This document shows positions 3,986 through 62,327 of a DNA stretch of 64,000 nucleotides, in pieces. The translations under genes and the position numbers were made by a program. Within the stretch, counting starts at the first letter, position 1. The number at the start of each line of letters is the position of its first letter. A model generated the notes under the pieces. It was given only the letters and a program-made list of their open reading frames with translations. It was not told the DNA's origin and did not search any database. Source of the stretch: Deltaproteobacteria bacterium (GTDB taxonomy: Bacteria; Desulfobacterota; Desulfuromonadia; Geobacterales; Pseudopelobacteraceae); the NCBI GenBank assembly GCA_021850095.1, contig JAJZRX010000008.1:1-64000 (forward strand). Reading direction: 5' to 3'.

Positions 3986-4957
3986 TCATTGCACTGCTAT
4001 GATGTCGGTGGGGTATACTTGAAAGCCATCCTTTACCGCAGCAGTCGCCCCGTTCGATCCAACAAAACCGGTTATCACCACGCTCCCCATGACAGTTCCC
4101 GGAGCAAAACCGAGTCCCGGGACAATCTTTCCGCCGCGCAGGACGTTCAGTTCCTGGCCCAGGTTGACACCGGCGTCGTGGCCGGCATTGATATAGATTT
4201 TACCGGCTTCAATTGCCACGATTTTGGCATACCAGGGGAGTTGCGCAATCGCTTCGCGTGACCGATCGGCAAGCGTTGCCATTGATGCCGCAACGGCACT
4301 GTTCATGGCAACAGAATCTTTTGCATCATAGGCCGGTATGATTGAATCAGCCTTGCTGATCAATCCCGCCCCCATGCCGTCATAGATTTCGACCGACAGG
4401 AATTTGCCAGATCCGAGTCCATCCGGAGCGGATACAAACAACGACACGTTTACACCTAGATCCTGCCAGGCCTTGGCGGCATAGGCAGCACGTTCGTCTC
4501 TGGACAAGAGTTTATCCGCTGCCGCTTCGGGAGCAATGGATATGACGGGGGATCCTGGCAATACGCGCAGCTTTTCCTTTAATGGGATGGAAAGCTGGCT
4601 GTGGCCTGTTTCCAGTACAGCAGCTCGACTTCGCATACCGCTGGTAAATGGCTTTGCCGCAACAGCTACCGCAGGGAACGCAGGTACGGGAGTTGAACTT
4701 TGCTGAACGGTTCCGTCTGCCTGATTATTCGTTACTGAATCGTAGGCCTTTTTGATTACCTCGCTGCCGCGTGGCGGGCCATTATCCACAGCGCTCTTCG
4801 GTACCCAGATGGTGGCGGGGGCGTCTCGCGACATGGTGAAGGCCGGATTGCTTATCTCCACGTATTCCGAAGATGAACGGTCATCATTTGCCTTGGTTCC
4901 GGCGCAGGCCGTCAGGGAAAGCACAAGTGGAAGAATAAAATAATTATTAACTCGCAA
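3986..4957 (-). CDS. putative lipoprotein of unknown function
   Basis: Signal peptide with lipobox LSLTACAG; 323 aa. Confidence 0.6.
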   Translation of the reverse strand: MRVNNYFILPLVLSLTACAGTKANDDRSSSEYVEISNPAFTMSRDAPATIWVPKSAVDNGPPRGSEVIKKAYDSVTNNQADGTVQQSSTPVPAFPAVAVAAKPFTSGMRSRAAVLETGHSQLSIPLKEKLRVLPGSPVISIAPEAAADKLLSRDERAAYAAKAWQDLGVNVSLFVSAPDGLGSGKFLSVEIYDGMGAGLISKADSIIPAYDAKDSVAMNSAVAASMATLADRSREAIAQLPWYAKIVAIEAGKIYINAGHDAGVNLGQELNVLRGGKIVPGLGFAPGTVMGSVVITGFVGSNGATAAVKDGFQVYPTDIIAVQ

Positions 4958-5275
4958 AGAACACTCCTTTTAACATTTAGTAGTAGGAAATTATTTTTCT
5001 GCGTTTTTTGGCAAGAAAACAACATCGCAACGCACTATTTGTTTTATCCGGGTTAGGATTGAAATAGACTCCGAGCTCAATTGTTTGCACAAAAATAAAA
5101 CAGTGTCATGCAATAGCATATAAAGAGATTTGTTTCTTACCGAATCGCGAGATCAATGTCAATAATTTAGATAATAAAAGCGTAAACACGATAATTGATA
5201 TGAAAAACAGCGTTTGTTTTTGACGTGTGGGGAGTGCCGTGGTTCTCTCTGGAATAAATCTCTTAAGGATACCTC

Positions 5276-6197
5276 GTGTAGTGCTATTCTACCGCAACCT
5301 GTAATGACATACTCTGTCTGATGTGTATGGTACCATCGCGGTAGGGAGGGTATATCATGAAAAAGAACCATATACAGTTGCAAAAAGGCCTGAGTTTAAA
5401 CCAGTTTATAGCTTCTTATGGCACCGAAGAGCTATGTGGGGCTTTTCTGGAGAAGTCACGCTGGACAGAAGGGTACAGCTGTCAAAAGTGTGGTTGTGCG
5501 CATCCATATGTTTACTGGAAGAAAACCGTGAAAGTTTTCCAGTGTAGCGCCTGCAGAAAACAGGTGACGTTGACCGAAAATACGATCTTTCACTCTACGA
5601 AATTATCCCTGGTCCAGTGGTACCAAGCTATGTATGAACGAGAAATCACAACTAAACTTTCCGGCAGTGTTGAAATTGACGATGCCTATTTCGGAGGAGA
5701 ACTCCGGGATGGCAAAGTCGGCCGTGGTTTTGAGAACCAAGATCCCCTTTATTCCAGCGTTCCAGACCAATGCCAGTAACAACTCAATTTATGCAGTCTT
5801 TCACCAGGTCAAGAATTTCAGCCTATCCGAGGTCAAATCTTGGGTACAGCAATCTTTGGTTCACGACACTCTTGTCGTTTCCGATGGTCTCAACTGCTTT
5901 AAAGCGGTAACTAAAGCAGATTGCGATCATCAACAAGTAGTTGTCGGCAGCAAGCGCAAGAGCGTTGATATGGAATGTTTTTTCTGGATCAACACCATAC
6001 TTGGTAATTTAAAAACAGCCATTACAGGCACTAAATCATGCGTTTGACTTTAAAAAGCACGGATTTTGCTCTCTCGGCGAGTATCAATACCGATTTAACC
6101 GCAGTTTCAATCTGGCGTCTATGTTCCTGTTTGCTGCCACCCATACAGGGGCTTGGCCAGAGAGGCTTTTACGCCTTGCGGAAGAATAGCACTTCTT
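5276..6197. mobile_element. degenerate IS1595-family (ISXO2-like) insertion sequence
   Basis: Terminal inverted repeats gtagtgctattctaccgcaa (left) and ttgcggaagaatagcacttct (right) flank transposase fragments. Confidence 0.75.
5357..6190 (+). pseudogene. IS1595/ISXO2-like transposase, frameshifted
   Basis: Overlapping ORFs 5357-5779 (Zn ribbon CQKCGCAHPY...FQCSACRKQVTLTENTIFHSTKLSL..VEIDDAYFGGE) and 5634-6047; the frame is broken in several places. Confidence 0.8.
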
Positions 6198-6266
6198 CTC
6201 AGCCTTTTCTTTGACGATTGCCAAGAGCTGTGATAAATTCCTCCCTCGAAATTACGGGAGTCAATT

Positions 6267-6566
6267 ATGCAAAAGGAACATCTTGAAATACTGCTTGAAT
6301 CGATTGACAGTAAATTTCAGGTTACACTGGAAGCCTTTCAGTCACTCAATCAAAAGATCGATACCAAGATTGATGAACTACGGAGTGAGCTGAAGCAGGA
6401 CATTGCTGTTGTTGATAGTAAGGTGATGGGATTGAGCAAGCGTCTGGATTCAGTTGAAGAACGCCTCTCAAATGAGATAGCAGAAGTTCGTGCCGATCTA
6501 GCTGCTCACCGTAACAATACCGAACTGCATCACGCGCCGCCAAAGCACCCGTTGAAAAGAGCTTAA
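6267..6566 (+). CDS. small predicted coiled-coil protein
   Basis: 99 aa, heptad-like; 5 bp upstream of parA. Confidence 0.5.
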   Translation: MQKEHLEILLESIDSKFQVTLEAFQSLNQKIDTKIDELRSELKQDIAVVDSKVMGLSKRLDSVEERLSNEIAEVRADLAAHRNNTELHHAPPKHPLKRA

Positions 6567-6571
6567 TTCCC

Positions 6572-7354
6572 TTGAATCCTAAATCCAAAACCATCTGTAT
6601 AGCCAATCAGAAGGGCGGCGTCGGCAAAACTACCACCGCTGTCAACCTGGCCGCTTCACTGGCGGCGGCCGAGCGGCCTACGCTTCTGGTCGATATCGAT
6701 CCCCAGGGCAATGCCACCAGCGGTGTCGGTATAGACAAGGCCGCTTTGCGCCACACAGTCTACGACGTTCTGATTAATGGCGCCGATCCGAAAGAGATCA
6801 TTCTGGATACTGGCCAGCCCTATCTGCATATTCTGCCGTCGAATTCCGACCTGGCAGGGGCCGAGCTGGAGCTGATCACTGAAACCGGCCGGGAGCAAAA
6901 GCTCAAGTTTGCGCTGACAGCGCTGACGGATCAGTACCGCTATATCATTATCGATTGCCCCCCCTCGCTGAATCTGCTGACAATCAACGCCATGACCGCC
7001 GCCAACTCGGTCCTGATACCGCTACAGTGCGAGTTCTACGCCATGGAGGGGCTTTCCCAGATCCTGCAGACTATCCGCCTGATCCAGAAAGGACTGAACC
7101 CCTTCATGGTCATTGAGGGGATTCTGCTGACCATGTTCGACGCGCGCGGCAATCTGGGCAAGGAAGTGGCGGCTGAAATCCGCACCCATTTCTCGGAGCA
7201 GGTCTTTGAGTCGGTCATACCGCGCAATGTGCGCTTGGCCGAGGCTCCAAGCCATGGCAAGCCGATCATGTATTACGATATCACCTCGCGCGGCGCTGCC
7301 AGTTATATGCAGCTGGCCCGTGAGATTATGAAAAGGGAGGCAGCCAATGGCTAA
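6572..7354 (+). CDS. parA: ParA/Soj family chromosome partitioning ATPase
   Basis: Deviant Walker A KGGVGKTTTAVNLAASLA, DIDPQGNATSG; TTG or alternative start. Confidence 0.93.
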   Translation: MNPKSKTICIANQKGGVGKTTTAVNLAASLAAAERPTLLVDIDPQGNATSGVGIDKAALRHTVYDVLINGADPKEIILDTGQPYLHILPSNSDLAGAELELITETGREQKLKFALTALTDQYRYIIIDCPPSLNLLTINAMTAANSVLIPLQCEFYAMEGLSQILQTIRLIQKGLNPFMVIEGILLTMFDARGNLGKEVAAEIRTHFSEQVFESVIPRNVRLAEAPSHGKPIMYYDITSRGAASYMQLAREIMKREAANG

Positions 7355-36819: not shown

Positions 36820-36908
36820 GGAAGGGTGGCCGAGTGGTTTAAGGCAGCGGTCTTGAAAACCGCCGAGGTTAATAGCCTCCGTGAGTTCGAATCTCACCTC
36901 TTCCGCCA
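36820..36908 (+). tRNA. tRNA-Ser(UGA)
   Basis: ggaagggtggccgagtggtttaaggcagcggtcttgaaaaccgccgaggttaatagcctccgtgagttcgaatctcacctcttccgcca; acceptor pairing, long variable arm, anticodon TGA, encoded CCA. Confidence 0.97.
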
Positions 36909-36943
36909 TTTAACTTTGATCAAATTTTATATAATGAAGCCAG

Positions 36944-36972
36944 AAAACCCGCTAGAGATGGCGGGTTTTTTC
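36944..36972 (+). terminator. terminator downstream of tRNA-Ser
   Basis: aaacccgctagagatggcgggtttttt. Confidence 0.65.
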
Positions 36973-37022
36973 GTAATTTTAGTGGATTTATGCAATCATC
37001 CGTAACAGCGAGGAATTTCATC

Positions 37023-40000
37023 ATGTCCCAAAACCAGACCGAAAACCGCTTTATCGAACTGATGACCGAACTGTTTCAACTGGATGAAGCCGAGGCCCTT
37101 GATTTCGGGCTCTATCGGATTATTCGCCGCCAGAATCGGGAAATTCGTGATTTTATCGGTGAAATTATCAGCGAGGGCGGACAGAAGGTTTTGCGGGGTG
37201 GGCAGTTATCAGCTTTATTGGCGGAAACCTTTGCCTCTGTTGATGACGAGGCCACGGCGGATGATACCTACCGGATTGCTGAATTGGAAAAAGTTCTTGG
37301 TATAAAGCCGGGGATGAATCTGCCGGAACGCGAGCTTTTGTTGGCGTCACTGGAGAAGATACCGGCGACCGCCCAGATGGTGGCCGATTATCGCAGCCGC
37401 CTGGAAAACAGGGCCGCTGCAAAAACAGCCACAACGGATCAGGCCGAGGTGCTCAATCGGCTTTATCAGTTTTTCTCGCGCCACTACCAGGACGGCGATT
37501 TCATCGTCGAACGCCGCTATGGGCGGGACGGTAGTCGCTACATCCGTTCAACCGGCGAGGATACCGAGTTTCACTGGGCCACCGAGGACATGTACTACAT
37601 CAAGTCCGGCGATATCTTCACCGATTTCCCGGTCAAGCTGATCAGGGGTCAGCGGTTGTTGTTTACGGTTGAGGCGGACAGCCTACAGAAGACCCGGGCA
37701 GAATTGAAGCCGAGCGACAAGGCCCACTATGAGCTGGATACCGTGGCAGCGGGTGAGGGCGGGATATTCAAAATCAGCCTGAAGTATCTCAAGGGGGCGC
37801 AGAGCGATAAACAGAAGGATGAGATCGCCGCAGCGGCGCAAAAAGTGTCCGGCGGAGACGCCGCCGAGATCAAGCGCTGGCTGAACCATTTCATTGCCCG
37901 CAACCAGTCCGATTTTTTCATTCACAAGCGCTTAAAAGAGGCGTTGGCCGAGGATCTGGATATTTTCATCAAAACCGAGGTGCTGGACGCCGACCAACTG
38001 CTGGCCGACGGCGACCTGCCCCGGCGGGTAACCAAGGTGGCGCGCATCGTGCGCCGGGTGGGGCAGCAGATCATCGACTTTCTGGCGGTGCTGGAGGATT
38101 TTCAGAAGGCGCTCTGGGAGAAAAAGAAGCTGGTCTTTACTACTCGCTACGTCATCACCCTGGACCGGATCGACAAGCTGGCCGGCCGGGAGTGGCTGGA
38201 AACGCATCTGGAGCGGATAATAGAGCTGCAACGGGAGGAATGGCGGGCGCTGGGGCTGGGGGATATTGCCACGGCTGCCGCCTGCCGGGTGGAAATTCCG
38301 GGTGATCTGCTGACACAGGCGAGGGTGCGCTATCTGCCGCTGCCGGTGGATACGGTGCATTTTGATGATGAGTTCAGGTGGGCGCTGCTGGCGGCTGTTA
38401 CGCACGAAAAGGGGCTGGATCAGGCTCTGGACGGGGTGGCGATACATTCGGATAACTGGCAGGCGCTCAATACCATGCAGGCCAAGTATCGCGATCAGGT
38501 CAAGTGCTGCTATATCGATCCGCCGTATAACACCGGCGGCGATGGATTTCCCTACAAAGATGCCTATCCTCATGCATCATGGCTGGCAATGATACAGGAT
38601 CGGCTTAATGAGGCAGTTCCCTTCATGGCTCGCAAAGGCGCGCTGTTTTCCAGTATTGACCATGTGGAACGACATGCTCTGACCGAGGCTCTTGGACGCG
38701 CTTTCGGGCGCAATAACCGGGTGGAGGAGATTATCTGGGGGCAGAACACCACCAAGAATCAGTCGCCAACGTACTCGACCAACCATGAGTATGTGGAGGT
38801 TTTTGCCCGCGACCTGGCTGCGGCTAGCAGCGACGAACGCATGTTTCGCGAACCCAAGCCCGGCGCCGCAGAAGTGCTTGAACTGGTGGAGCGTCTGAAT
38901 TCTGAGTACCCAACTACGGCTGAAATTGAGCGGGAAATCAAAGCTTTGTTTGAAAAGCATCGTTACGAATTACGCAGCGAGCTTGAAGATCTGGGCGTTG
39001 AATACGAAAAAAGCCTGGATACCTGGAAAGGGCTCTATAATTATCAGCATGCAGAGTATCGGGATGAACACGGATTATTTGTACAGGAGTCTGAAGCTAG
39101 AGAGAAGTTGGCAAGAATTTGGATTTGGAAAGAAGGTGACTCTTCCTTTCCCAAAGGTGGTGGTACAGATAATAAAGTGGGTGTCCATACGTTTGGAGAC
39201 CCTGATTATCGTTTTTACCGCCCCAAACATCCAATTTCTGGTGAAAAGTGCCCACATCCAAAATCTGGATGGCGATGGCCTGAACGTCCGGCAGGTATGT
39301 CAAGTTCCTTTGAAGAGATGGATGCTGACCATCGCATCGTTTGGGGTGATTGGAATCCCAAGAAGCCAAAAGTTCCACAAGTTAAAAGATTTTTGCACGA
39401 AGTTGATACGCAGGTTTCGAAATCGATAGTACTTGATTATACAGATGGCGAAAAAGAGTTAACAAATCTCACAGGTAAAATACGAAGTTTCCCAAACCCA
39501 AAACCAACCACACTTATCGAACGCTTCATCCTGCAAACAACCGATGCTGACGAATGGGTCATGGACTTTTTCGGCGGTTCCGGCACAACCTTTCATGCTG
39601 CGGTAAGCGCACAACATGATGATCGCCAGCGCCGCCGTGTCTTGCTGATTGAAGGGGGCAGGCATTTTGAACCCATTTTGATGCAGCGGGTGAAACGGGT
39701 TTCAGCTGCCTGGTTTTGGAAGAACGGCAAACCGGTTGCTCTCGACGGTCCCGGCCTCTTCATGCGGGTGCAGGCGCTGGAGCAGTACGAGGACACCTTG
39801 GAAAACCTGGATATGGAATCCCCCAGCGACTCTCCGAAACTCCCCTTCGATGATCCGGCCTGGCGGCTGCGCTATCGCCTGGAGCAGGCCAGCCGTGGCC
39901 TGTATTGCGGCATTGATCGCTTTATTTCTCCCTTCGGCTATACCCTGAAACGGGTGGAAGGGGGCGGCGATGCCCCGGAGCGGCCGGTTGATCTGGTGGA

Positions 40001-40274
40001 AAGCCTGTTTTATCTGCTGGGGATTGAGGTGTCGCGCATGCTCCGCGAACCGCAGGGGGTGGTGGTGACCGGGCGCGACCGGCGGCAGCAGTCGTTGGCG
40101 GTGTTTTTCCGTGACTGCGCGGCACCCGATTCCGCTGACTGGCTGAAGGTCAAGCTGGCCGAATACCCAGCCGACCGGGTGCTGACCAATGATCCGGCTA
40201 GTCTGATCTTTGAGGGGTGCGAGCGCTTCGAGGCGATTGAGACGGTTTTTGCCGGGCAGTTCGGGAGGGTCTAA
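37023..40274 (+). CDS. large beta-class adenine-specific DNA methyltransferase (Type III Mod-like, long N-terminal extension)
   Basis: DPPYNTGGDGFPYKDAYPHASW precedes WVMDFFGGSGTTFHAAV (beta-class motif order); 1083 aa. Confidence 0.88.
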   Translation: MSQNQTENRFIELMTELFQLDEAEALDFGLYRIIRRQNREIRDFIGEIISEGGQKVLRGGQLSALLAETFASVDDEATADDTYRIAELEKVLGIKPGMNLPERELLLASLEKIPATAQMVADYRSRLENRAAAKTATTDQAEVLNRLYQFFSRHYQDGDFIVERRYGRDGSRYIRSTGEDTEFHWATEDMYYIKSGDIFTDFPVKLIRGQRLLFTVEADSLQKTRAELKPSDKAHYELDTVAAGEGGIFKISLKYLKGAQSDKQKDEIAAAAQKVSGGDAAEIKRWLNHFIARNQSDFFIHKRLKEALAEDLDIFIKTEVLDADQLLADGDLPRRVTKVARIVRRVGQQIIDFLAVLEDFQKALWEKKKLVFTTRYVITLDRIDKLAGREWLETHLERIIELQREEWRALGLGDIATAAACRVEIPGDLLTQARVRYLPLPVDTVHFDDEFRWALLAAVTHEKGLDQALDGVAIHSDNWQALNTMQAKYRDQVKCCYIDPPYNTGGDGFPYKDAYPHASWLAMIQDRLNEAVPFMARKGALFSSIDHVERHALTEALGRAFGRNNRVEEIIWGQNTTKNQSPTYSTNHEYVEVFARDLAAASSDERMFREPKPGAAEVLELVERLNSEYPTTAEIEREIKALFEKHRYELRSELEDLGVEYEKSLDTWKGLYNYQHAEYRDEHGLFVQESEAREKLARIWIWKEGDSSFPKGGGTDNKVGVHTFGDPDYRFYRPKHPISGEKCPHPKSGWRWPERPAGMSSSFEEMDADHRIVWGDWNPKKPKVPQVKRFLHEVDTQVSKSIVLDYTDGEKELTNLTGKIRSFPNPKPTTLIERFILQTTDADEWVMDFFGGSGTTFHAAVSAQHDDRQRRRVLLIEGGRHFEPILMQRVKRVSAAWFWKNGKPVALDGPGLFMRVQALEQYEDTLENLDMESPSDSPKLPFDDPAWRLRYRLEQASRGLYCGIDRFISPFGYTLKRVEGGGDAPERPVDLVESLFYLLGIEVSRMLREPQGVVVTGRDRRQQSLAVFFRDCAAPDSADWLKVKLAEYPADRVLTNDPASLIFEGCERFEAIETVFAGQFGRV

Positions 40275-41372
40275 ATGGCGGCCAAGGTGAAAAATGCACA
40301 ATCAGGCAAGGCTATAAAAGCGGAAAATAAAGCAACTTCGCCTGTTCCTCTCCCTGGCCAGCCGTTGCTGACTGAAGTGCGGGAGCTTATTATCTCCGCC
40401 CGTCGGCAGGTTGCCCAAACCGTCAATGCCGGGCTGACAATGCTGTATTGGCAGGTCGGCGACCATATTCGACGTGACGTCATGAAAGAAAAACGGGCGG
40501 AATATGGAGCGGAGATTGTGCAGACGCTGTCTGCACAATTGGAAGTAGAATTCGGGCGTGGTTTTGGTCGCCGAAATCTGTTCCAAATGATCAGATTTGC
40601 TGAGGTATACCCTGACCCGCAGATTGTGCAATCGCTGATTGCACAATTGGGATGGACACACTTCCAGCATATCATCAGGCTTGATAACCCGTTGAAGCGG
40701 GACTTCTACGCTGAATTATGCCGACTGGAAAAATGGGGTACTCGTACGCTGAACAAGAAAATCCAGTCCATGCTGTTCGAGCGTACGGCACTTTCCAACA
40801 AGCCGGAGAAGCTCATCGAAATAGAGCTGAAAGAACTTCGCGACACAGACAAGCTAACTCCCGACCTCGTGTTTCGCGATCCCTACTTCCTTGATTTCCT
40901 GGGTCTCAAGGACGTCTACGCTGAAAAGGATCTTGAAGCCGCCATACTGCGTGAAATGGAATCGTTCATTCTGGAGCTGGGGGTGGGGTTCGCCTTTATG
41001 GAGCGACAGAAACGGATCATCGTGGATGGCATCGACCATTATCTTGATCTCCTCTTCTACCACCGGAATTTAGGGCGTCTGGTTGCCATTGAGTTGAAGA
41101 TCGGTGAATTCAAGGCAGCGCATAAAGGTCAGATGGAACTCTATCTGGGCTGGCTGGACCGGTATGAGCGGAAGCCGGGCGAGGAGCCTCCCATCGGCCT
41201 GATTCTGTGTGCCGGAAAACGTCACGAGACCGTCGAACTGCTTGATCTCGAACGAAGCGGCATTCAGGTGTCGTCATACTGGACGGAAGCCCTGCCGAAG
41301 GCCGAAATGGAGCGCAAGCTACATGAGGCGGTGATCTTGGCCCGTGCGCGGCTTGAAGGGCGGTCGGTATGA
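40275..41372 (+). CDS. DUF1016/YhcG-type PDDEXK nuclease-domain protein
   Basis: LISARRQVAQTVNAGLTMLYWQVGDHI; C-terminal DHYLDLLFYHRNLGRLVAIELKIGEFKAAHKGQMELYLGWL. Confidence 0.88.
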   Translation: MAAKVKNAQSGKAIKAENKATSPVPLPGQPLLTEVRELIISARRQVAQTVNAGLTMLYWQVGDHIRRDVMKEKRAEYGAEIVQTLSAQLEVEFGRGFGRRNLFQMIRFAEVYPDPQIVQSLIAQLGWTHFQHIIRLDNPLKRDFYAELCRLEKWGTRTLNKKIQSMLFERTALSNKPEKLIEIELKELRDTDKLTPDLVFRDPYFLDFLGLKDVYAEKDLEAAILREMESFILELGVGFAFMERQKRIIVDGIDHYLDLLFYHRNLGRLVAIELKIGEFKAAHKGQMELYLGWLDRYERKPGEEPPIGLILCAGKRHETVELLDLERSGIQVSSYWTEALPKAEMERKLHEAVILARARLEGRSV

Positions 41373-43843
41373 GCAAAGCAAAGCAATCCGGTCATTCCCG
41401 CCTGAAGGCAGCCCTGATGCTGCGGGACGCCCTGGCCTTTGAGCTGGGGATTGATCTGTCAAAAGCCATGCGGCAGCTGGCCGTGGCCGAGGAAACCCTG
41501 GACGCACGAAAGGCGCTGGATGAGGGGCATTTCCTGGCGGCGCTGCATTCGGTCTGCTGCGGCGACTTTGACCAGATCACCCGTTTTGATTCTTCTGTTC
41601 GCACCGCCTGTGCCCAGGTACGCCTGGCGCCGCGCTATGCCCAGTATCTGGGGCTGCTGTTGTTTGTCTGCTGGCTGGAAGCCCAGCGTATGGATGCCGC
41701 CGCGCTGCTCTGCCGTCTGAACCTGTGGCTGACAGCTCACCCGCCCACGGGTGAAACGCTGGAGCCGTTTGTCGAAGCCGATTTGCAGTGTGCCGCTTTC
41801 TGGATGGCGACTGCTGCGGGCAAGACCCACGTGCTGCATGCCTGTCTGGCCCTGCTGTTTAGGCATCATAATTGGGACAGGATTTTGCTGGTGACTCCAT
41901 CGGAGGCGCTGACGCGGCAGCATGCCGACAAGCTGCGCGAGGTTGGTCACTGGGATGTGTTCGCCTATCCGCAGGATGGCGACCAGTCCGCCCTGGGGCG
42001 CTTGTCACCCGATACGGTGATTGTCCTTGATATCAACAAGCTGTCTGATGCAAAAAAAGGCGAAGGTGTCACGGTCCCGATGACCGTTTTCGAGGATGGC
42101 CGCAATCTGGTTTTCGTGGACGAGGGGCACAAGGGGCAGAAGTCGGAGGAAAGCGTCTGGAAACGTCTGCAGCAGGATCTGGCGGGAATTGATGCTGTTC
42201 AGCCGCGTCATCGCGGCATGCTGATTGAGTTTTCGGCGACCTTCGGCCAGGTGGCGGAAAAGGAACATGCCTTTGGGCGCTACGCCAAATCGGTGATCTT
42301 TGATTACGCTTATGACTGTTTTCATGCCGATCTGTACGGTAAGGATTTCTGGCATGTCAAGCTGGATGGACGTGGCGAGGCCGATCAGGCGGTGCGACAA
42401 CAAACCATGACGGCGGCCCTGTTGTCGTTCTGGCATCAGGTTGATTGCTACCGCAGTGGCGCAGCCCGGCAGCAGGCATCCGAACTGGGATTGAAGGTGG
42501 CAGCGCCGTTGTGGGTGCTGCTGGGGCTTTCGGTTATCGGCGGCAGCAACAAGAGCGACAAGGAACAGACATCCGACGTGATTGATTTCCTGCGCTTTCT
42601 TGCCGAGGTCGTCCAGCGCCGGGAGCAGTTGGTCGACTGGCTGCATGACGTTCTGGAGTGTACCGTTATCGGTTGCGATCTGCTGCCGCGCGAGGTACGT
42701 GCCGCAGTAGTTGGTAAAACCACGGAAGAGCTGGCTCACCGGATTCTGACCGATGTCTTTGCCTGGCAGCCTGGCGATAAGCCGGTGTTGCGCCTGCTGA
42801 AAACGGCGACAGGTGAATTGGGGATCGGCCTGCGACGTGGCGACCATGTTCATTATTTCGGTGTGGTGAACGTGGGTGATGCCGGCGGTCTGAAAAAGGC
42901 GCTTGAAGGCGCGAACTTGCTGGTGGAGGACGATGTGTTGACCTCGTCGCTCTTTGAAGATCTTGGCCGCAATGATTCGGGCGTTAATATACTGATCGGC
43001 TCCCGCCGTTTTGCCGAGGGGTGGGACAACTACCGGGCTGCCAGCCTGACTCTGCTGCGACTCGGCCAGGGCGAGGGCTCGTTGATTATTCAGATGTTTG
43101 GACGAGTGGTGCGCTTCGCCGGGAAGAATGGCGACGGTAAACGCATCGCCAAGCCACCTGTTGTTCTAAAACCACTGCAAACCGCCTATCTCTTTGGTCT
43201 GCGCTCCGCTTACCTGGAAACGTTTCTGAATGATCTGCATGCCAACGGAGTACCGGTATCGACACATGTAGACTGCCCGACATTCCTGAACCTTCCGCTG
43301 CCAACGTCGTTGAAATCTGTCAGGGCAATTGCGCCGGAAAAGATCGAGTTTGTTGTCGAGGCTAAAGGCGCAAGCTGGTTGCCCAGGCTCACCAGAGTGA
43401 AACTGTCATTGGCCGCATCGGTGACAACAACCGGTCTGACGAGCGGCGGTGTCACCCTGTCAAAAGGGGTGGCAGGGGAAGATATTACGGCAATATTCCG
43501 GCAGCAACTGGTCGCCATTGATCTGGATGCCGTGCATCGGGAGATGGTGGAGATGAAACGTACGCTGCGCTGGTGGAACTTTGCCTTTGACCGGGAAGCC
43601 ATCCGCGCGGCGCTGGAAAGTAACCGCTACGAAATCTTCGGCCTGCCGTCTGCCATGCGAATCAGCGGAGAGGCTGACCTGGCCAGGCTTCAGCGTATGG
43701 CCGCGTCGATTGTCCGCCGTTTGTTTGAAAGCGCCTATCGCAAGCAGGAAAACCGGAGAAGCCGCAACGCGCGGATTGAGGCACAGCAGAGCGGAATCCC
43801 CGTTGAATATTACAAGGACTTTGATTATGCCGCCGAAACTTAA
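41369..43843 (+). CDS. DEAD/DEAH-type helicase (Type III Res-like, lacking an obvious C-terminal nuclease)
   Basis: MATAAGKTHVLHACLALL (Walker A-like), VFVDEGHKG (motif II), GSRRFAEGWDNYRAASLTLLRLGQGEGSLIIQMFGRVVR (motif VI-like). Confidence 0.82.
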   Translation: MSKAKQSGHSRLKAALMLRDALAFELGIDLSKAMRQLAVAEETLDARKALDEGHFLAALHSVCCGDFDQITRFDSSVRTACAQVRLAPRYAQYLGLLLFVCWLEAQRMDAAALLCRLNLWLTAHPPTGETLEPFVEADLQCAAFWMATAAGKTHVLHACLALLFRHHNWDRILLVTPSEALTRQHADKLREVGHWDVFAYPQDGDQSALGRLSPDTVIVLDINKLSDAKKGEGVTVPMTVFEDGRNLVFVDEGHKGQKSEESVWKRLQQDLAGIDAVQPRHRGMLIEFSATFGQVAEKEHAFGRYAKSVIFDYAYDCFHADLYGKDFWHVKLDGRGEADQAVRQQTMTAALLSFWHQVDCYRSGAARQQASELGLKVAAPLWVLLGLSVIGGSNKSDKEQTSDVIDFLRFLAEVVQRREQLVDWLHDVLECTVIGCDLLPREVRAAVVGKTTEELAHRILTDVFAWQPGDKPVLRLLKTATGELGIGLRRGDHVHYFGVVNVGDAGGLKKALEGANLLVEDDVLTSSLFEDLGRNDSGVNILIGSRRFAEGWDNYRAASLTLLRLGQGEGSLIIQMFGRVVRFAGKNGDGKRIAKPPVVLKPLQTAYLFGLRSAYLETFLNDLHANGVPVSTHVDCPTFLNLPLPTSLKSVRAIAPEKIEFVVEAKGASWLPRLTRVKLSLAASVTTTGLTSGGVTLSKGVAGEDITAIFRQQLVAIDLDAVHREMVEMKRTLRWWNFAFDREAIRAALESNRYEIFGLPSAMRISGEADLARLQRMAASIVRRLFESAYRKQENRRSRNARIEAQQSGIPVEYYKDFDYAAET

Positions 43844-44921
43844 GAAAAAACAGCTGCAGCCCGGTCTGTTCGGCTCTTCGCCGGAGTGTCCGGATATCAG
43901 AAACCTCCCCTGCATCGTTGATCCGCAGGGAAAGATCGAGGTCTGGGCGCCGGGCAGTGTCTATCAGCCACTGCTGTTGACTCCCGGTGGCGGTGTCAGT
44001 GCCGGCCCCGGTTCGTTGGACATAAACGAAGAGCTTTTCGTCCGCCATCTGATAAAACGGCTTTATCCCGCCGGGGATCATCCCAAGAGTGAAAAAACTC
44101 CACTGATCTGGCAGGGAAGAGAACTCTGGTTCAAGCGCAATATCGAAAAAGATCCTCGTTCATTCCGTTTGCGGGTGGATGATTCCGACTGGTTCTATCC
44201 CGATTTTATCATCTGGATTCTGGACCGGGAAACCAGGACCCAGACCTTCGGTTTTGTTGATCCAAAGGGTTTGGCTATTGGCGCGGCGGGCGGCTGGTCT
44301 GATTTCAAGATAGTTTCCACAATCTACATGCCGCATGTGGTTGATTTGCAGCTTGGCGAACAGGGCGAGTTGCTGGAATATGAAGGTCAAGAGTGGACGT
44401 TTCGTGTACGCGGAGTGCTGGTTTCTACTTCAAGCCTGGAGAGTTTGACGACTCATGCCAAGTTCAGGGTGCGGGACGAAATGGGAAATAGCATTGCTCC
44501 GACGGAGGATGATTTCAGACAGGCCCGGATCATTTTCCAGAGAAACGATGTCGGTTACATTGATTCCGTGCTTGATCTGTTGATGCATGATACGGAAATG
44601 GACAGGATTGTCGAGGCGGCGGCCTGTCTGCATCACGCCACTGACTCGTTTGTGCCCGACGATGAGGTCGGCTATGATCTGGCGTTGCGCCTGGACGAGT
44701 CCGAACAATCGGAAACGGAATTTGTCGGTGCCCTGTTGGAGGACTACCTGAAGCCTGACAGTGCGGGCAAACTGGGGGCTTGTGTCCAGCGAAGAAGACG
44801 TGGTTATCTACTGGATTATGCCAAAGAAGGGATATTGGGCCTGGGAGCGGAGAAAGCCATCTCCGTACGTGATAATCCGACTCCCTGCGCGGAGTTGTGG
44901 AAGAGGAAGCGAAAAGGGTAA
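43827..44921 (+). CDS. putative stand-alone PD-(D/E)xK nuclease subunit of the R-M-like operon
   Basis: DSDWFYPDFIIWILDRETRTQTFGFVDPKGLA resembles the PD...DxK core of Type III Res nuclease domains; ATG overlaps the helicase stop. Confidence 0.55.
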   Translation: MPPKLKKKQLQPGLFGSSPECPDIRNLPCIVDPQGKIEVWAPGSVYQPLLLTPGGGVSAGPGSLDINEELFVRHLIKRLYPAGDHPKSEKTPLIWQGRELWFKRNIEKDPRSFRLRVDDSDWFYPDFIIWILDRETRTQTFGFVDPKGLAIGAAGGWSDFKIVSTIYMPHVVDLQLGEQGELLEYEGQEWTFRVRGVLVSTSSLESLTTHAKFRVRDEMGNSIAPTEDDFRQARIIFQRNDVGYIDSVLDLLMHDTEMDRIVEAAACLHHATDSFVPDDEVGYDLALRLDESEQSETEFVGALLEDYLKPDSAGKLGACVQRRRRGYLLDYAKEGILGLGAEKAISVRDNPTPCAELWKRKRKG

Positions 44922-45176
44922 GGCAATGGTGCCAGGCTCCCGCAGATTGGGCAATCTCGCCATTCCTCGTGTTTTGCTGATTTACAAGTTCAGGTTTAAC
45001 GTGATCCACCCCAAATGGGGTAGTGTAGTGAGCAGATGAGAAGTAAATACGTTGGTGCCGGATATGTTGAAAATATTTAGTCAATATTATTGGTATGTTA
45101 AGTGTATTTTGCTGTTTGGCACGGCATATGCTTTTAGTAAAGGCAGCTTCACTAAATCATTCTGGAGGTTTTACCC

Positions 45177-45416
45177 ATGAAAAAAGTTCTTTCCACTCTC
45201 GTTGCCGCCCTGGTTGCCATGTCTTTCTCCGCCGTAGTATTTGCCGCTGAAATGCCGGCCGGCCACCCGGCTGTTGCTGCTCCGACTGCTGATGCCAAGC
45301 CTGCTGTGGAGAAAAAGGAAGTTAAGAAAGTAAAGAAACACAAAAAAGCAATGAAAGCAAAAGCAGCAAAGAAAGAAGCCGCTCCTGCTGTTGAAGCTGC
45401 TCCTGCTGCCAAGTAA
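45177..45416 (+). CDS. small secreted Ala/Lys-rich protein
   Basis: Signal peptide MKKVLSTLVAALVAMSFSAVVFAAE then low-complexity A/K/V; SD ggaggt. Confidence 0.6.
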   Translation: MKKVLSTLVAALVAMSFSAVVFAAEMPAGHPAVAAPTADAKPAVEKKEVKKVKKHKKAMKAKAAKKEAAPAVEAAPAAK

Positions 45417-45436
45417 TTCCACTTTCAGAATGTTTC

Positions 45437-45471
45437 AAAAAAAGCCGCATCTTCGGATGCGGCTTTTTTTA
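45437..45471 (+). terminator. rho-independent terminator
   Basis: aaaaaaagccgcatcttcggatgcggcttttttt. Confidence 0.85.
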
Positions 45472-45547
45472 TAACTACATCGCGATGTTTGATGTATAAA
45501 AAAGGCAATTTTGCGTGGCTGTATTAAAGGCAGGTGGAGAAATATAG

Positions 45548-55651: not shown

Positions 55652-56401
55652 ATGCATCCTGAAACTATTAAAGACCTGCTCCATTCGATCCAGGATGGAA
55701 CGCTCTCCATTGATGACGGCCTGCGTCAGTTGAAACAGCTCCCTTATCAGGATCTGGGCTGCGCCCAGGTCGACCATCACCGCGAACTGCGCCAGGGGAT
55801 GCCGGAGGTGATCTTCGGCCAGGGCAAGACGGTGGAGCAGATTACCGCGATCATGACCGCCATGTCTGCTAAAGGGAGCAATGTTCTGGTGACGCGGCTG
55901 GATCAGGACAAATCCGGTCAGATCCTGACCTCCTTTCCGGCCGCCCGCTATCATGCGGAAGCGCGTTGTCTGACGCTGGAGCATAAGCCGGTCGAGCCGT
56001 CTGGCAAGGGAACCATTCTGGTGCTGTCGGCCGGCACATCCGACATACCGGTGGCGGCCGAGGCGGTCGTCACGGCCGGATTCCTGGGCAACCGGGTGGA
56101 GCAGATTTTCGATGTCGGCGTGGCCGGTATTCACCGTCTGCTGGCACGGAGCGATCAGCTGGCGGCCGCCTCGGTCATCATCGTCGTGGCCGGCATGGAA
56201 GGGGCGCTTCCCTCGGTGGTGGGCGGCCTGGTGGACAAGCCGGTCATCGCGGTGCCGACCTCGGTTGGCTACGGCGCCTCCTTCGGCGGGATCGCGGCGC
56301 TATTGGGGATGCTCAACTCCTGCGCCGCCGGGGTGACGGTCGTCAACATCGATAACGGTTTCGGAGCCGCCTGTGCCGCCAGTATGATCAATCGGGTCTG
56401 A
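55652..56401 (+). CDS. larB: nickel pincer cofactor biosynthesis protein LarB
   Basis: ARYHAEARCLTLEHKP; VLSAGTSDIPVAAEAVVTAGFLGN; AVPTSVGYGASFGGIAALLGMLNSCAAGVTVVNIDNGFGAACAASMI. Confidence 0.93.
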   Translation: MHPETIKDLLHSIQDGTLSIDDGLRQLKQLPYQDLGCAQVDHHRELRQGMPEVIFGQGKTVEQITAIMTAMSAKGSNVLVTRLDQDKSGQILTSFPAARYHAEARCLTLEHKPVEPSGKGTILVLSAGTSDIPVAAEAVVTAGFLGNRVEQIFDVGVAGIHRLLARSDQLAAASVIIVVAGMEGALPSVVGGLVDKPVIAVPTSVGYGASFGGIAALLGMLNSCAAGVTVVNIDNGFGAACAASMINRV

Positions 56402-56408
56402 AAGGACC

Positions 56409-59003
56409 ATGAAGGAGCCAGTGAGTAAACAAACATCATCCCCGGAGAATCCCATGAGAATTGGCAATAACCGCAAAAGCGCCCCCACTGCACGTTCTAA
56501 AGAATCCGCAAAAATCGCAAAACAACCCAAGCTCAGCCGTACCCACAAGCCGGCGGATATGGATCTGGAAGAGTGGCAGCGTCAACTGCGGGTGGAGTAC
56601 GGCAAGAGTCAGGAATTTCAACTGGAAAATCGTGGCGATCATCCGGTGTTCTCCGAATTTGCCCTGACAAACCCCGTCTCAAAAAGAACCTACCGCATCG
56701 CGATCCGGGGCGACCAGCCGGGTGACAATTTCTGCTCCTGCCCCGATTTCCGCATAAACGGACTGGGAGTCTGCAAACATATCTCCTTCACCCTGGCTCA
56801 CCTGAAAGCCTTGAAAGGCGGCGCAAAACATTTCAAATCCGGATTCATCCAGCCCTGGTCGGAAATGTATCTTTCCTATGGACTGAAGCGCGCGGTCAGA
56901 CTTCGTCTGGGGAGCGCCGCGCCGGCGGCTCTCCGGAAACTGTCGCAGCGTTACTTTGCCTCTGACGGTGTATTGAAGGAACAGCGGTTTGGTGACATTA
57001 CCGATTTTATCGCCAAAGCGACCAGCCTGCCCAGACACGAGCTGCGCTGTTATGACGATGTCATGGAATTCATCGCTTCCCGCCAGGATGCCGATCATCG
57101 CCGCGCCATGATAGATTCCATGTTTCCGCAAGGTATCGATTCGCCGGTCTTTGATTCGCTCATCAAGGCAGACCTGTATTCCTATCAGCGGGAAGGGGTG
57201 CTTTTCTCCGCCCGGGCAGGGCGGGCGCTGCTGGCCGACGACATGGGTCTGGGTAAGACCGTCCAGGCCATCGCGGTGGCGGAGGTGATGGCGAGACTCT
57301 TCGATATTTCCAGGGTTCTGGTCGTCTCGCCAACCTCATTGAAACACCAGTGGAAAAGTGAGATCGAGGCGTTTACCGACCGGACGGCCACCGTGATCGA
57401 AGGTTTGACCCCGCAACGCCGCGAGCTGTATCGGTCCGACTCGTTTTTCAAGCTGGTGAACTACGAGCTCATTTACCGCGATGTTGATCTGATCGAAGAG
57501 TGGGCGCCGGATCTGATCATCCTGGACGAGGCGCAGCGCATCAAAAACTGGCAGACCCGCACCGCCCAGGCGGTGAAGCGTCTGGAATCCCCGTTTGCCC
57601 TGGTCTTAACCGGAACGCCTCTGGAAAATCGTATCGAAGAACTCCATTCCATCATGGAATTCGTGGATCGTCATCACCTGGGGCCGCTTTACCGCTTCGT
57701 ACACATGCACCGTGTCACGGATCAGGCTGGCAAGGTGATCGGCTACAAAGAGCTGGACAAGATTCGCACTTCATTGAGCGGTATCATGATCCGGCGGAAA
57801 AAGAGCGAGGTTCTGAAACAGCTTCCCGAGCGGATCGACAAGAATTTTTTCGTAACGATGACGCCCGAACAGATGGAGATACATCAGGATTATGCCGACG
57901 TGGTGGCGCGGCTTGTGGCCAAGTGGCGGCGATTCCATTTTCTCAACGAGGCGGACAGTTTGCGTCTGCGCATCGCCCTGGCCAATATGCGCATGGTGTC
58001 GGACAATACCTGGCTGGTTGACAAGAAAACCGTGCACGGTCCGAAGGTTGAGGAACTGGAGACGCTGCTTAGGGAACTGGTCATCGAGGGTGGCGAAAAG
58101 GTTGTCATCTTCAGCCAGTGGCTCAGGATGAACGAGCTGGTGGAACAGGTGCTGGCGCGTCTTGAGATCGGGCATGTTCATCTGAACGGTGCCGTGCCAT
58201 CCAAAAATCGCAAGCAGCTGATGAGTCGTTTCAAGTCTGATCCTGAGTGCAAGGTATTTCTTTCCACCGATGCCGGCGGGGTGGGGCTGAACCTTCAGAG
58301 CGGCTCGGTGGTGATCAACCTGGATATACCCTGGAACCCGGCCATACTGGAGCAGCGCATCGCCAGGGTGCACCGCATGGGGCAGAAGAAACCGGTGCGG
58401 GTAATCAATTTCATTTCCCGCAACTCCATCGAGGAGCGAATTCTTGATCTTTTGCGCTTCAAAAAGGCGGTCTTTGCCGGGGCGCTGGATGAGAATGGTA
58501 GCGACACGGTGATGCTGGGCGAATCCCAACTGAATGCCTTCATGAATTCCGTGGAGGATCTGACCAGCGGCATGGAACAAGTTGATCTGTCCGGCGGGCA
58601 GGATGTCTGGCGCGATGAACAGGAGGCGGAGGAGGCGGGGGCCGAGATCGTCCCGGATGCCGTTCAGGGTGAAGTGGCGGAAACATCCTCACCGCAAGCG
58701 GCAACAACTGCTGGCGCAGCACAAACTCCGCCGCTGGGCGAGCTGTTGCAAGCCGGCGCGCGTTTTCTGATGGAGCTGGGACAGGCGCTTTCTCCGCAAC
58801 CGGCGGTCGCGGGAAATGTTGCCGGCGCAACATCAGGTGATGTCCGGCGTAACCCGCTGGCATCGCTGGTAAGCGTGGACGAGGCAACCGGCAAGAGCTG
58901 CCTGAAGATTCCGCTGCCGGAACCGGAGGTGATGACTTCGCTCGTATCCGGCTTGAGTCAGTTGTTGGCCGGGTTTATGGCGGGAAGGAAGCGGGGGGCA
59001 TGA
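56409..59003 (+). CDS. SWIM zinc-finger SNF2-family helicase
   Basis: FCSCPDFRINGLGVCKHISF (SWIM CxCxnCxH); LLADDMGLGKTVQAIAVAEVM; LDEAQRIKN; LNLQSGSVVINLDIPWNPAILEQRIARVHRMGQ. Confidence 0.93.
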   Translation: MKEPVSKQTSSPENPMRIGNNRKSAPTARSKESAKIAKQPKLSRTHKPADMDLEEWQRQLRVEYGKSQEFQLENRGDHPVFSEFALTNPVSKRTYRIAIRGDQPGDNFCSCPDFRINGLGVCKHISFTLAHLKALKGGAKHFKSGFIQPWSEMYLSYGLKRAVRLRLGSAAPAALRKLSQRYFASDGVLKEQRFGDITDFIAKATSLPRHELRCYDDVMEFIASRQDADHRRAMIDSMFPQGIDSPVFDSLIKADLYSYQREGVLFSARAGRALLADDMGLGKTVQAIAVAEVMARLFDISRVLVVSPTSLKHQWKSEIEAFTDRTATVIEGLTPQRRELYRSDSFFKLVNYELIYRDVDLIEEWAPDLIILDEAQRIKNWQTRTAQAVKRLESPFALVLTGTPLENRIEELHSIMEFVDRHHLGPLYRFVHMHRVTDQAGKVIGYKELDKIRTSLSGIMIRRKKSEVLKQLPERIDKNFFVTMTPEQMEIHQDYADVVARLVAKWRRFHFLNEADSLRLRIALANMRMVSDNTWLVDKKTVHGPKVEELETLLRELVIEGGEKVVIFSQWLRMNELVEQVLARLEIGHVHLNGAVPSKNRKQLMSRFKSDPECKVFLSTDAGGVGLNLQSGSVVINLDIPWNPAILEQRIARVHRMGQKKPVRVINFISRNSIEERILDLLRFKKAVFAGALDENGSDTVMLGESQLNAFMNSVEDLTSGMEQVDLSGGQDVWRDEQEAEEAGAEIVPDAVQGEVAETSSPQAATTAGAAQTPPLGELLQAGARFLMELGQALSPQPAVAGNVAGATSGDVRRNPLASLVSVDEATGKSCLKIPLPEPEVMTSLVSGLSQLLAGFMAGRKRGA

Positions 59004-59278
59004 GAAAGAAATCAAGAACCAACGAAAAAAACAATCCCCGACTGAGGGACGCCTTTCTTGAAGTTGTTGATAATCAACTGGATGCAAACGAGCCGCCGGA
59101 AGCCAGGCAAACGCTTGATCGCTTGATTGCTCAAGGTATTTCAGAGGAAAATGCGAAGAAGTATATCGCTCAAGCCGTGTGTCTTGAGGTTTTTGATGTC
59201 CTGAAGCACAACAGGCCTTCAGATCAGGATAGATATGTCAGAAATCTTCTGCGCCTCCCCGAGGAACCGCAAGAATAG
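59000..59278 (+). CDS. small protein of unknown function (possibly DUF1841-like)
   Basis: 92 aa; start overlaps the SNF2 stop (ATGA). Confidence 0.5.
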   Translation: MRKKSRTNEKNNPRLRDAFLEVVDNQLDANEPPEARQTLDRLIAQGISEENAKKYIAQAVCLEVFDVLKHNRPSDQDRYVRNLLRLPEEPQE

Positions 59279-59289
59279 GTAGACCGGGT

Positions 59290-59630
59290 CAAGCAAATCG
59301 GGCCTGGCTGGCTGAATCGCTGGAGAAGTCGCTTTTGCAGCGAGAGGTGCTGACCTACGGAGTTGTGCTTTGCGAACTGCTGCAGGGAGTCAAAAAGCCG
59401 GATGAAGAGTTGCTGGTGCTGAATGCCCTGCAGGCGTTGCCTTGTCAGAAAATGACGCGGGAGTTGTGGATTCAAGCCGGCCAACTCTCGGCCTCGCTTC
59501 AAAAAATGGCCACAGGTTGCCGCTGTCCAATATAATCATAGCGACACTTGCCCTGCATCATGGTTGTTCCGTGCTGACGGTTGATCGACATTTTGGGCTG
59601 ATTGCGGGTTTGGAGCTGGTGGAAAGATGA
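59290..59630 (+). pseudogene. PIN-domain (VapC-like) toxin relic, truncated and frameshifted
   Basis: LLQREVLTYGVVLCELLQGVKKPDEELLVLNALQALP... in one frame, then LPLSNIIIATLALHHGCSVLTVDRHFGLIAGLEL in another. Confidence 0.7.
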
Positions 59631-59675
59631 TCTTGGTGGAACGTTAGCTTTAAGAAGAGTAAAGAGGAGTCAGTT

Positions 59676-59751
59676 CGTCAACATCGACAGCGGTTTCGGA
59701 GCCGCCTGCGCGGCTAATATGATCAACAGGTTGCGAACGGAAAATGTATGA
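59676..59751 (+). pseudogene. second copy (relic) of the larB 3' end
   Basis: gtcaacatcgacagcggtttcggagccgcctgcgcggctaatatgatcaac translates VNIDSGFGAACAANMINRLRTENV*, paralleling larB VNIDNGFGAACAASMINRV*. Confidence 0.85.
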
Positions 59752-59766
59752 CTATTTTTTGTGCTA

Positions 59767-59794
59767 CTGAAAAATAGTCTTGACTATTTTTCAG
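59767..59794. repeat. perfect 13-2-13 palindrome upstream of the ATPase gene
   Basis: ctgaaaaatagtc tt gactatttttcag, plus a third arm copy gactattttt at 59750-59759. Confidence 0.8.
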
Positions 59795-59815
59795 TGAAGG
59801 TAATAATTGCCAGTT

Positions 59816-61036
59816 ATGTGGCGCCGTGAAAAATACAAAAAAATATGGGATGAACTTGCTGCCGATAAGGCAATGGTTTTTCTTGCGGGTCCCCGGCAGT
59901 CCGGCAAGACAACTCTAGCCAAGTGTATTGCAGATGAATACGCAAGTAGCCTTTACTTCAATTGGGATATCCTTTCGCACCGGGACCGGCTGATAAAAAA
60001 CAGCACGTTTTTCGAGGAAGTTGAGAGGAAAGCGGCGGACCGTCCTTTGATAATCCTGGACGAGATTCATAAATACCGCGACTGGAAAAACTATCTTAAA
60101 GGGGTCTATGACCAGTTTTATCAATCCTACCAGTTTCTGGTTTCAGGCAGCGGGCGGCTCGACCTGTATCAGAAAGGGGGCGACTCCCTCGCCGGGCGCT
60201 ATTTCATGTTTCACCTCTGGCCGTTTACTCTGTCGGAATTGGTGGGGAACAACGCGACAGTTGATTCCTTTCTGGCTGCTCCACTGGAGACAGGCACGGA
60301 CAGAAGCCCGGAGTTGAAGCAACTTTGGGATGGACTTGCGGAGTTGAGTGGTTTTCCTGAACCGTATCTCTCTGGTAAATCCACAACCTGGCGCCGCTGG
60401 TCGAACAGTTATGCGCAGCAGTTGATCCGGGAGGATATCCGGGAACTTACCGACGTCAAGTCAGCAACAACCATGGAAACCTTGTATCACCTGCTGGCGT
60501 CACGCATTGGCAGTCCGGTCTCCATACCATCCCTCTCTCGTGATCTTCAGGTTTCCTATAATTCGGTTCAGAACTGGCTCACCATATTCGAGCGGTTTTT
60601 CATGCTGTTTTCCATCATCCCGTGGAGTAATCGGATAGCGCGGGCCATCCAGAAGGAGCGGAAACTCTACCTTTTCGATGTGCCGCGCATCATGGACCGG
60701 GCAGCGCGATTTGAAAACATGGTCGCTCTGGAGTTGTGGCGAGCTGTCACGGCATGGAACGATGTGGGGTATGGCAACTTCTCGCTTCATTTCATAAAAA
60801 ACAAGGAACAGCAAGAGGTTGATTTTTTGCTGGCCAGGGATAACGAACCTTTTCTGCTGGTTGAAGCCAAAATGTCGGATATGCAGCCTTCAGCTGCGCT
60901 GCGGAAGTTTCAGCAGGCACTGGAAGTGCCGGCGGTGCAGCTGGTGAATGAAGGAGAGGGGTACCGGCTTTTCACCAATGGCGATCAGAAAATCCTGGTT
61001 GTCCCGGCTTGGTTGTGGTTGGCAGGATTGCCGTGA
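59816..61036 (+). CDS. AAA ATPase with DUF4143-type C-terminus
   Basis: VFLAGPRQSGKTTLAKCIADEY; FLVSGSGRLDLYQKGGDSLAGRYFMFHLWPFTLSEL; QEVDFLLARDNEPFLLVEAK. Confidence 0.9.
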   Translation: MWRREKYKKIWDELAADKAMVFLAGPRQSGKTTLAKCIADEYASSLYFNWDILSHRDRLIKNSTFFEEVERKAADRPLIILDEIHKYRDWKNYLKGVYDQFYQSYQFLVSGSGRLDLYQKGGDSLAGRYFMFHLWPFTLSELVGNNATVDSFLAAPLETGTDRSPELKQLWDGLAELSGFPEPYLSGKSTTWRRWSNSYAQQLIREDIRELTDVKSATTMETLYHLLASRIGSPVSIPSLSRDLQVSYNSVQNWLTIFERFFMLFSIIPWSNRIARAIQKERKLYLFDVPRIMDRAARFENMVALELWRAVTAWNDVGYGNFSLHFIKNKEQQEVDFLLARDNEPFLLVEAKMSDMQPSAALRKFQQALEVPAVQLVNEGEGYRLFTNGDQKILVVPAWLWLAGLP

Positions 61037-61145
61037 ACGGCTGCCGAAAAAATGTCCATTTGGGAAGTTCCCCGGTTCTCCAAGAGAATTCCTGACATAC
61101 TACAAAAAACAGCGCATAACTATTTCGTAAACTAAGTAGGCATCC

Positions 61146-62327
61146 ATGACCATTTTATACCTTGACTGCCAGGCCGGTATTTCCGGCGATATGACCGTGG
61201 GGGCCCTGCTGGATCTGGGGGTGCCGCTGGAATACCTGCGTTCCGAGCTGACCAAGCTGGCGCTGCCGGCGGAATCCTTCAGCCTTTCAATCCGGCGCAC
61301 CGAACGGCGGCACTTTGCCGCGCTCAAGTTCGACGTAACCGTGCATGATCACCATACCCACCGTCATTATGCCGCTATTGACACGCTGATTGTCGACAGT
61401 GCATTGCCCGCTCCGGTAAAGGAAAAAGCACGGCGGGTCTTCCGGCGCCTGGCCGAGGCTGAGGCCGGGGTGCATGGTGTGCCGCTGGAAGAAGTGCATT
61501 TTCACGAGGTCGGCGCGCTGGATTCAATCGTCGATATCGTCGGAGCCGCGATCTGTCTGGACTATCTGGGTGTTGAAGCCATTCATGCCTCGGCGCTGCC
61601 GCTGGGGAGCGGCTTTGTCAACAGCGCCCATGGGCGCCTGCCGGTGCCTGCTCCGGCCACGGCGGAACTGCTGCGGGGGATGCCGCTGCATGGCGATTGC
61701 GGGCCGGGCGAGCGGGTTACGCCGACCGGGGCGGCCATCCTGGCGGCATTATGCGATGGTTTTGGAAAACAGCCGGGGATGCTGCTGGACAGGGTCGGCT
61801 GCGGGGCCGGCAGCAAGGATTTTGATGATTGCCCCAACCTTCTGCGGGTTTTTCTGGGCCGGACGCCTGCTGTTGCACGGCCGGCCGAGCAGGTGATCGT
61901 GGCTGAAGCCAATATTGACGATTCGTCAGCGGAAGTGCTGGGTTACGCCATGGAACGACTGCTGGAGGGGGGAGCGCTGGATGTCTTTTTTACCCCGATC
62001 CAGATGAAAAAGAATCGCCCCGGAACGATGCTTTCGTTTCTGTGCCGTCCGGAGCAGTTCGCTGTGCTGTCACGGATCGTGCTGACCGAAACTTCGGCCA
62101 TCGGCCTGCGCCATCACCGGGTTGAACGCACGGTTCTGGAGCGCCGGATTGTGGAGTTGCCGACGGAGTTGGGGCTGGTGCGATTCAAGCAGGTCTTTGA
62201 TGCAGATGGCAGCCTGTTGCGGGCAGCCCCTGAATACGAGGATTGCCGCCGGATCGCCGTCGAGCGGGGAATGCCCTGCCGGGACGTCATGGAGCGGGTG
62301 CAGCGGCCGGGGGTAAATGAGCGATGA
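61146..62327 (+). CDS. larC: nickel pincer cofactor biosynthesis protein LarC
   Basis: [52 protein letters not shown]. Confidence 0.93.

Follow-up and report, generated by a model that had tools for sequence, protein, structure and literature searches.

The stretch of DNA considered here, referred to as the window, comprises 64,000 nucleotides (positions 1 to 64,000 of contig JAJZRX010000008.1, assembly GCA_021850095.1) from a bacterium of the Desulfobacterota, family Pseudopelobacteraceae. At 37023-44921 it carries four co-directional, translationally coupled open reading frames (ORFs) on the + strand, which appear to encode a Type III restriction–modification (R-M) system whose restriction subunit (Res) is divided over two genes. 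The first gene, mod (37023..40274), encodes a beta-class Type III DNA methyltransferase of 1083 amino acids (aa). The second (40275..41372) encodes a DUF1016/YhcG nuclease of 365 aa. The third, res-H (41369..43843), encodes a superfamily 2 (SF2) helicase-like motor with a helical spacer and no nuclease domain (824 aa), and the fourth, res-N (43827..44921), a putative detached Type III nuclease subunit of 364 aa. The stop codon of mod abuts the DUF1016 start at 40275, the DUF1016 gene (end 41372) and the helicase gene (start 41369) share an ATGA overlap, and the helicase gene (end 43843) overlaps the nuclease gene (start 43827) by 17 bp. The initial annotation had described a four-gene operon with these abutting, 4-bp and 17-bp junctions, and all of its coordinates were verified on the sequence.

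The helicase matches Pfam ResIII (3e-10) and positions 377-701 of the PADLOC REase_III model PDLC03654 (3.1e-64). It carries the Walker A (TAAGKT) and Walker B (DEGH) motifs of a Type III motor. Aligned to fused Res proteins, it covers motor and spacer until about residue 820, where the protein ends. The same PADLOC Res model, of 1,154 positions, is taken up again by the fourth ORF at positions 1001-1051, at 17.6 bits only. The earlier suspicion that the helicase lacks its nuclease is upheld by this division of the model over two ORFs and by the point at which the fused-Res alignment stops.

The fourth ORF has no Pfam family and nothing above the NCBIfam cut-offs. Its kinship emerges from profile comparison: against 13 fused Res proteins, the nuclease profile aligned with a probability of 99 and an E-value of 2.5e-18 (hhalign), residues 43-258 falling on Res 889-1065 and PDF...VDPKG falling on the PDF...VDPKG of the fused Res. 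The nuclease matches about 840-1040 of the fused Res of plasmid and genome relatives, and its profile recovers fused Res C-termini across many genomes. Alignment of the homologues and fused Res delimits an active-site stretch, PDFIIWILDRETRTQTFGFVDPKG (residues 125-148; 44199..44270, + strand), in which P125, D126, D145, K147 and G148 are invariant in 16 homologues. Judged by these alignments, ORF 4 is the Res nuclease domain extended at both ends by new sequence, a tail at the N-terminus (1-42) and a further piece at the C-terminus (259-364). The proposal that it holds the nuclease core normally fused to Res is thus confirmed by the hhalign result, the divided PADLOC model and the shared PD...DPKG. 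The AlphaFold2 model of the nuclease reaches a predicted local distance difference test score (pLDDT) of 77.6, with 85-95 in the core. It contains a helix (66-79), strands (98-104, 127-133, 138-147), helices (160-178) and a further strand (188-200), an order in the model that is compatible with a PD-(D/E)XK core.

The methyltransferase (Mod) matches Pfam N6_N4_Mtase (3.5e-24) and PADLOC MTase_III PDLC03646 (5.4e-102). Its frame opens at 36990; the start at 37023 is favoured by a Shine–Dalgarno-like GAGGA and by the fit with homologues. The catalytic DPPY of motif IV (38517..38528, + strand; aligned to the Mod of Eco86II) and the FGG of motif I lie around the target-recognition region, as is typical of Type III enzymes. 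This target-recognition part, residues 601-800 (38823..39422, + strand), is marked by a dip in guanine–cytosine content at 39000-39999 and by sliding identity against the operon of a same-genus relative (L002). Between the two Mods the N-terminus is 80-100% identical, whereas residues 601-800 are only 42-62% identical, the divergence being restricted to residues about 501-900. The two operons probably encode one kind of machine that differs in its target, which is what would be expected if the R-M system functions.

The long N-terminus of Mod (about 490 residues) had been noted as a peculiarity. This did not hold, as the same is found in the Mods of fused relatives and in Eco86II of Escherichia coli NCTC86, a Type III R-M system that produces N4-methylcytosine (m4C) at GAGCC and cuts about 25 bp away (PMC8259958). 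The 1,040-aa Mod of Eco86II aligns end to end with that of the window (27%, E 1e-100), and the long N-terminus is therefore a feature of the whole branch. Its predicted structure is poor (pLDDT 65, predicted template modelling score 0.46). The base made by the window Mod could be N6-methyladenine, as the initial annotation had it, or m4C: the nearest characterised relative makes m4C, and DPPY(NT) is common to both kinds. Mod may act alone or may require the helicase, as methylation in two thermophile systems depends on Res (PMC8259958). Interrupted or frameshifted Mod genes were seen at L009 (3674-5152 / 5204-6724) and L013 (2979-5030 / 4844-6031). These breaks fall near motif IV or the target-recognition region, and decay, phase variation or assembly error are possible causes. 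The genome of the window also has a shorter Type III-like methyltransferase, a 641-aa frame on contig C71.

The detached form of the nuclease is kept in about 17 loci, which belong to several proteobacterial groups, Nitrospirota and one viral contig. Among 84,980 species genomes scanned, 20 loci matched: in 15 the detached nuclease is complete or nearly so, one is a fragment, and the other four are ordinary fused Res. Viral contigs yielded one copy, in the split form, and PLSDB plasmids yielded fused relatives only, with no detached nuclease. Among 395 genomes of the window's phylum, the split form occurs only in the window's own genome; 23 others match the shared core only, and in 18 of these the match lies in a frame of 1,029-1,218 aa. 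Other genome samples added G951, G1087 (which holds L004), G1247 (which holds L011) and the divergent L128, with fused forms besides. Plasmid relatives of the helicase are fused Res proteins of 1,022-1,133 aa beside Mods of 985-1,113 aa, and sixteen further fused loci from genomes follow the same pattern. With about 17 loci showing normal starts and overlaps, a frameshift or misassembly as the source of the split was ruled out.

Wherever both can be read, the helicase and nuclease genes lie side by side. The split helicases group as a single clade (support 100/100) with L128 basal. The tree, with an open fork and long branches, gives this clade no firm place among the fused forms, so that fission is preferred over a history of separate genes throughout on grounds of parsimony, given a fused outgroup. 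Purifying selection acts on all four genes. The ratios of nonsynonymous to synonymous substitution rates (dN/dS) between the window and L002 are 0.15 for Mod, 0.093 for DUF1016 and 0.08 for both helicase and nuclease, with 0.06 for serS and 0.03 for hemE among the flanking housekeeping genes.

The reading that fits these observations, and is probably correct, is a Type III R-M system of the long-Mod (Eco86II) branch whose Res is split in the linker that joins helical spacer to nuclease. The initial annotation had called the system Type III-like, and this stands, Mod, helicase and nuclease all being homologous to parts of Mod-Res systems. The homology of the core parts, the position of the split, its single-clade history, the purifying selection and the divergence of the specificity region can all be read from the sequences. 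Two sets of results weigh against this reading. A Foldseek search with the nuclease model against the PDB and viral models gave no match at E <= 0.001, and the case for the nuclease fold is therefore made from sequence homology and from how helices and strands are ordered; PD-(D/E)XK proteins do recur among the weak, non-significant matches. PCNA was considered as a PDB relative and judged a chance match (E 0.0015 and worse, residues 246-296, outside the active site). Secondly, the nuclease genes of L010 (internal stop) and L016 are broken, and some copies may consequently be methylation-only.

Such broken copies, together with the eroded locus L124, which has lost Mod and the helicase N-terminus, could indicate a decayed or methylation-only system, with the division of helicase and nuclease as a step of decay and no cutting. 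This is improbable for the window, in which all four frames are intact, helicase and nuclease have dN/dS values similar to those of the flanking housekeeping genes and the active-site residues are those kept invariant in the homologues. The separation of helicase and nuclease genes also recalls Hachiman (HamA/HamB), and HamA itself is among the non-significant Foldseek matches (E 0.2). On such a scheme the helicase would sense aberrant DNA and license a free nuclease regardless of methylation. Hachiman itself contains no methyltransferase. A long Type III Mod is always present where the contig allows, L124 excepted, and all three parts align with Eco86II, which has been shown to methylate and cut (PMC8259958); a Hachiman-like mode of action is accordingly regarded as highly implausible.

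The N-terminal tail of the nuclease is variable, and residues 1-45 are predicted to be disordered (pLDDT < 50). Within it, residues 11-15 read QPGLF (43857..43871, + strand), a QxxLF sequence resembling beta-clamp-binding motifs. The Q, L and F are kept in 17 of 18 close nuclease homologues (e.g., QLGLF, QSGLF, QGGLF), the sole exception being the broken gene of L016, and the tail of the divergent L128 reads QLTL. Among 587 other ORFs from the retrieved loci, taken as background, none has QxxLF within its first 25 residues, and the fused Res proteins have no common motif corresponding to it. From this conservation, it is well supported that the tail has a function. QxxLF / QL[S/D]LF is the consensus of bacterial beta-sliding-clamp-binding motifs (PMC12309361), and its position in a flexible segment is what the sequence of a beta-clamp-binding protein should present. 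Glycine at motif position 3, which is frequent in the detached nucleases, weakens clamp binding in E. coli (PMC12309361). Binding of the tail to DnaN is put forward as a hypothesis from the motif. The further step, that the tail would recruit the nuclease to the host beta sliding clamp, either coupling cutting to replicating DNA or letting the clamp hold it on DNA, is offered tentatively, as a possibility that is rather less likely to be right than wrong. If true, a restriction system would be using the replication clamp in place of the linker that joins motor and nuclease covalently in ordinary Type III enzymes. The open-access literature searched held nothing joining clamp-binding motifs with restriction–modification.

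The DUF1016 ORF matches Pfam DUF1016_N and YhcG_C (about 1e-45) and the PADLOC defence candidate PDC-S02 (5.8e-122). Its tight coupling at both junctions, its purifying selection and its listing as a defence candidate would suit a defence system of four genes whose complex cannot do without DUF1016 as a second nuclease, and the earlier description had treated it as a component. The survey of junctions speaks otherwise. In 13 split loci with a readable junction between Mod and helicase, DUF1016 occupies this slot in two, the window and L002, to which the four-gene order is limited. The slot is empty in L005, L010, L016 and L022, and it holds DUF4160+DUF2442 in L006 and L009, DUF2442 in L007, a PIN-type pair (UPF0175+DUF3368) in L003 and other sequence in L013, L014 and L128. 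The small genes of the slot include glyoxalase-like and unassigned ones, and L011 starts with frames ahead of the helicase that resemble DUF4160/DUF2442 by eye. Two further DUF1016 genes of the same genome lie elsewhere (G000:C22:4988-5848 and G000:C91:380-1078; 37-38% identical). An essential role in the complex is therefore unlikely. On the junction survey, DUF1016 is a separate nuclease-type passenger and not a core subunit, and PDC-S02 here sits inside an R-M operon. The slot would seem to be a site inside the operon where toxin-antitoxin-like or defence-like cargo can settle.

For the divided Type III system favoured here, we infer complex formation, sliding, cutting and phage defence from the sequence relationships. 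Type III enzymes mark a single strand at an asymmetric site and, using ATP, cut about 25 bp from it, for which two sites are required. Here a Mod dimer would bind such a site and methylate a single strand of host DNA; the helicase subunit would dock on Mod, hydrolyse ATP and start the complex sliding. The nuclease would most likely join Mod2-helicase non-covalently, through its fold and tail, and would cut beside the site once two complexes meet. Translational coupling through the 17-bp overlap may keep the amounts of helicase and nuclease equal, and the QxxLF tail may act as a new tether that engages either the beta sliding clamp or some pocket within the complex. The EcoP15I nuclease comes after a helical spacer, and in the crystal it is disordered (PMC4490356); the nuclease lobe and linker have been proposed to close round the DNA as a sliding clamp (PMC11142916). 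A natural split bears on the question of how Type III enzymes stay on DNA during sliding. Motor and nuclease are inseparable in EcoP15I; here they are naturally separate, and their roles could be tested singly by adding back the nuclease. The QxxLF tail, being conserved, points to another kind of tether and perhaps to restriction being linked with replication.

The operon lies behind serS and a tRNA-Ser (36820-36908), with a terminator-like hairpin at 36942-36971 upstream of mod. The whole insert behind the tRNA (36913..45545, no strand assigned) is absent from a same-genus genome (G025), in which the empty site leaves only ~94 bp between both flanks. L002 has its operon at the corresponding position after tRNA-Ser. 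A repeat of the tRNA end, as might mark an integrase-type insertion, was not found within the window at <=3 mismatches. A defence hotspot behind tRNA-Ser is unsupported, as a genome of another genus (G153) holds about 10.6 kb of apparently ordinary genes there, judged by their translations. Inside the insert, a small Ala/Lys-rich ORF with a signal-peptide-like start (45178-45417) was noted by eye between the operon and an S4-domain-like gene. A second stretch of the window missing from G025 (56401-61164) carries a SWIM/SNF2-type helicase (56409-59003) and an AAA_14/DUF4143 ATPase (59807-61036).

Among known systems, Eco86II, which was located by DNA search and analysed as L136, is homologous in Mod and Res from end to end, as expected within the long-Mod branch. 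It shares the helicase and nuclease, the PD...DPKG active site and the gene order mod-res, and its Mod and Res match PDLC03646 and PDLC03654 at 2,204 and 2,326 bits. It differs in that its Res is one chain of 1,126 aa without a QxxLF tail, and its mod and res lie 2 bp apart with no insert slot. A SNF2-type gene 5′ of mod is the mark of the third group in PMC8259958 and precedes mod in Eco86II, whereas tRNA-Ser and serS lie upstream of the window mod; the SNF2 gene of the window is 11 kb off and only generically similar. The classical N6-methyladenine enzymes EcoP15I and EcoP1I have in common with the window a beta-class Mod with DPPY and FGG, an SF2 motor, a helical spacer and a PD-ExK nuclease (PMC4490356; PMC11142916). 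Their Mod is of 644 aa without the long N-terminus, their Res is a single chain, and they have ExK where DPK is found here.

No split Type III Res was found in the open-access literature searched (REBASE and subscription papers were outside its scope), and to have called the architecture under-described was fair. PDLC03646 and PDLC03654 are the best models for Mod and helicase, and the latter is the sole one for the nuclease. As PDLC03654 treats Res as one protein, a detached nuclease is probably missed. Annotation would either call such systems Type III lacking a nuclease or leave the nuclease, which has no Pfam or NCBIfam family match, as a hypothetical protein. Since its PD-(D/E)XK nuclease is present in a gene of its own and not within a single-chain Res, the system of the window is best regarded as a variant, and not a plain member, of the Type III R-M systems.

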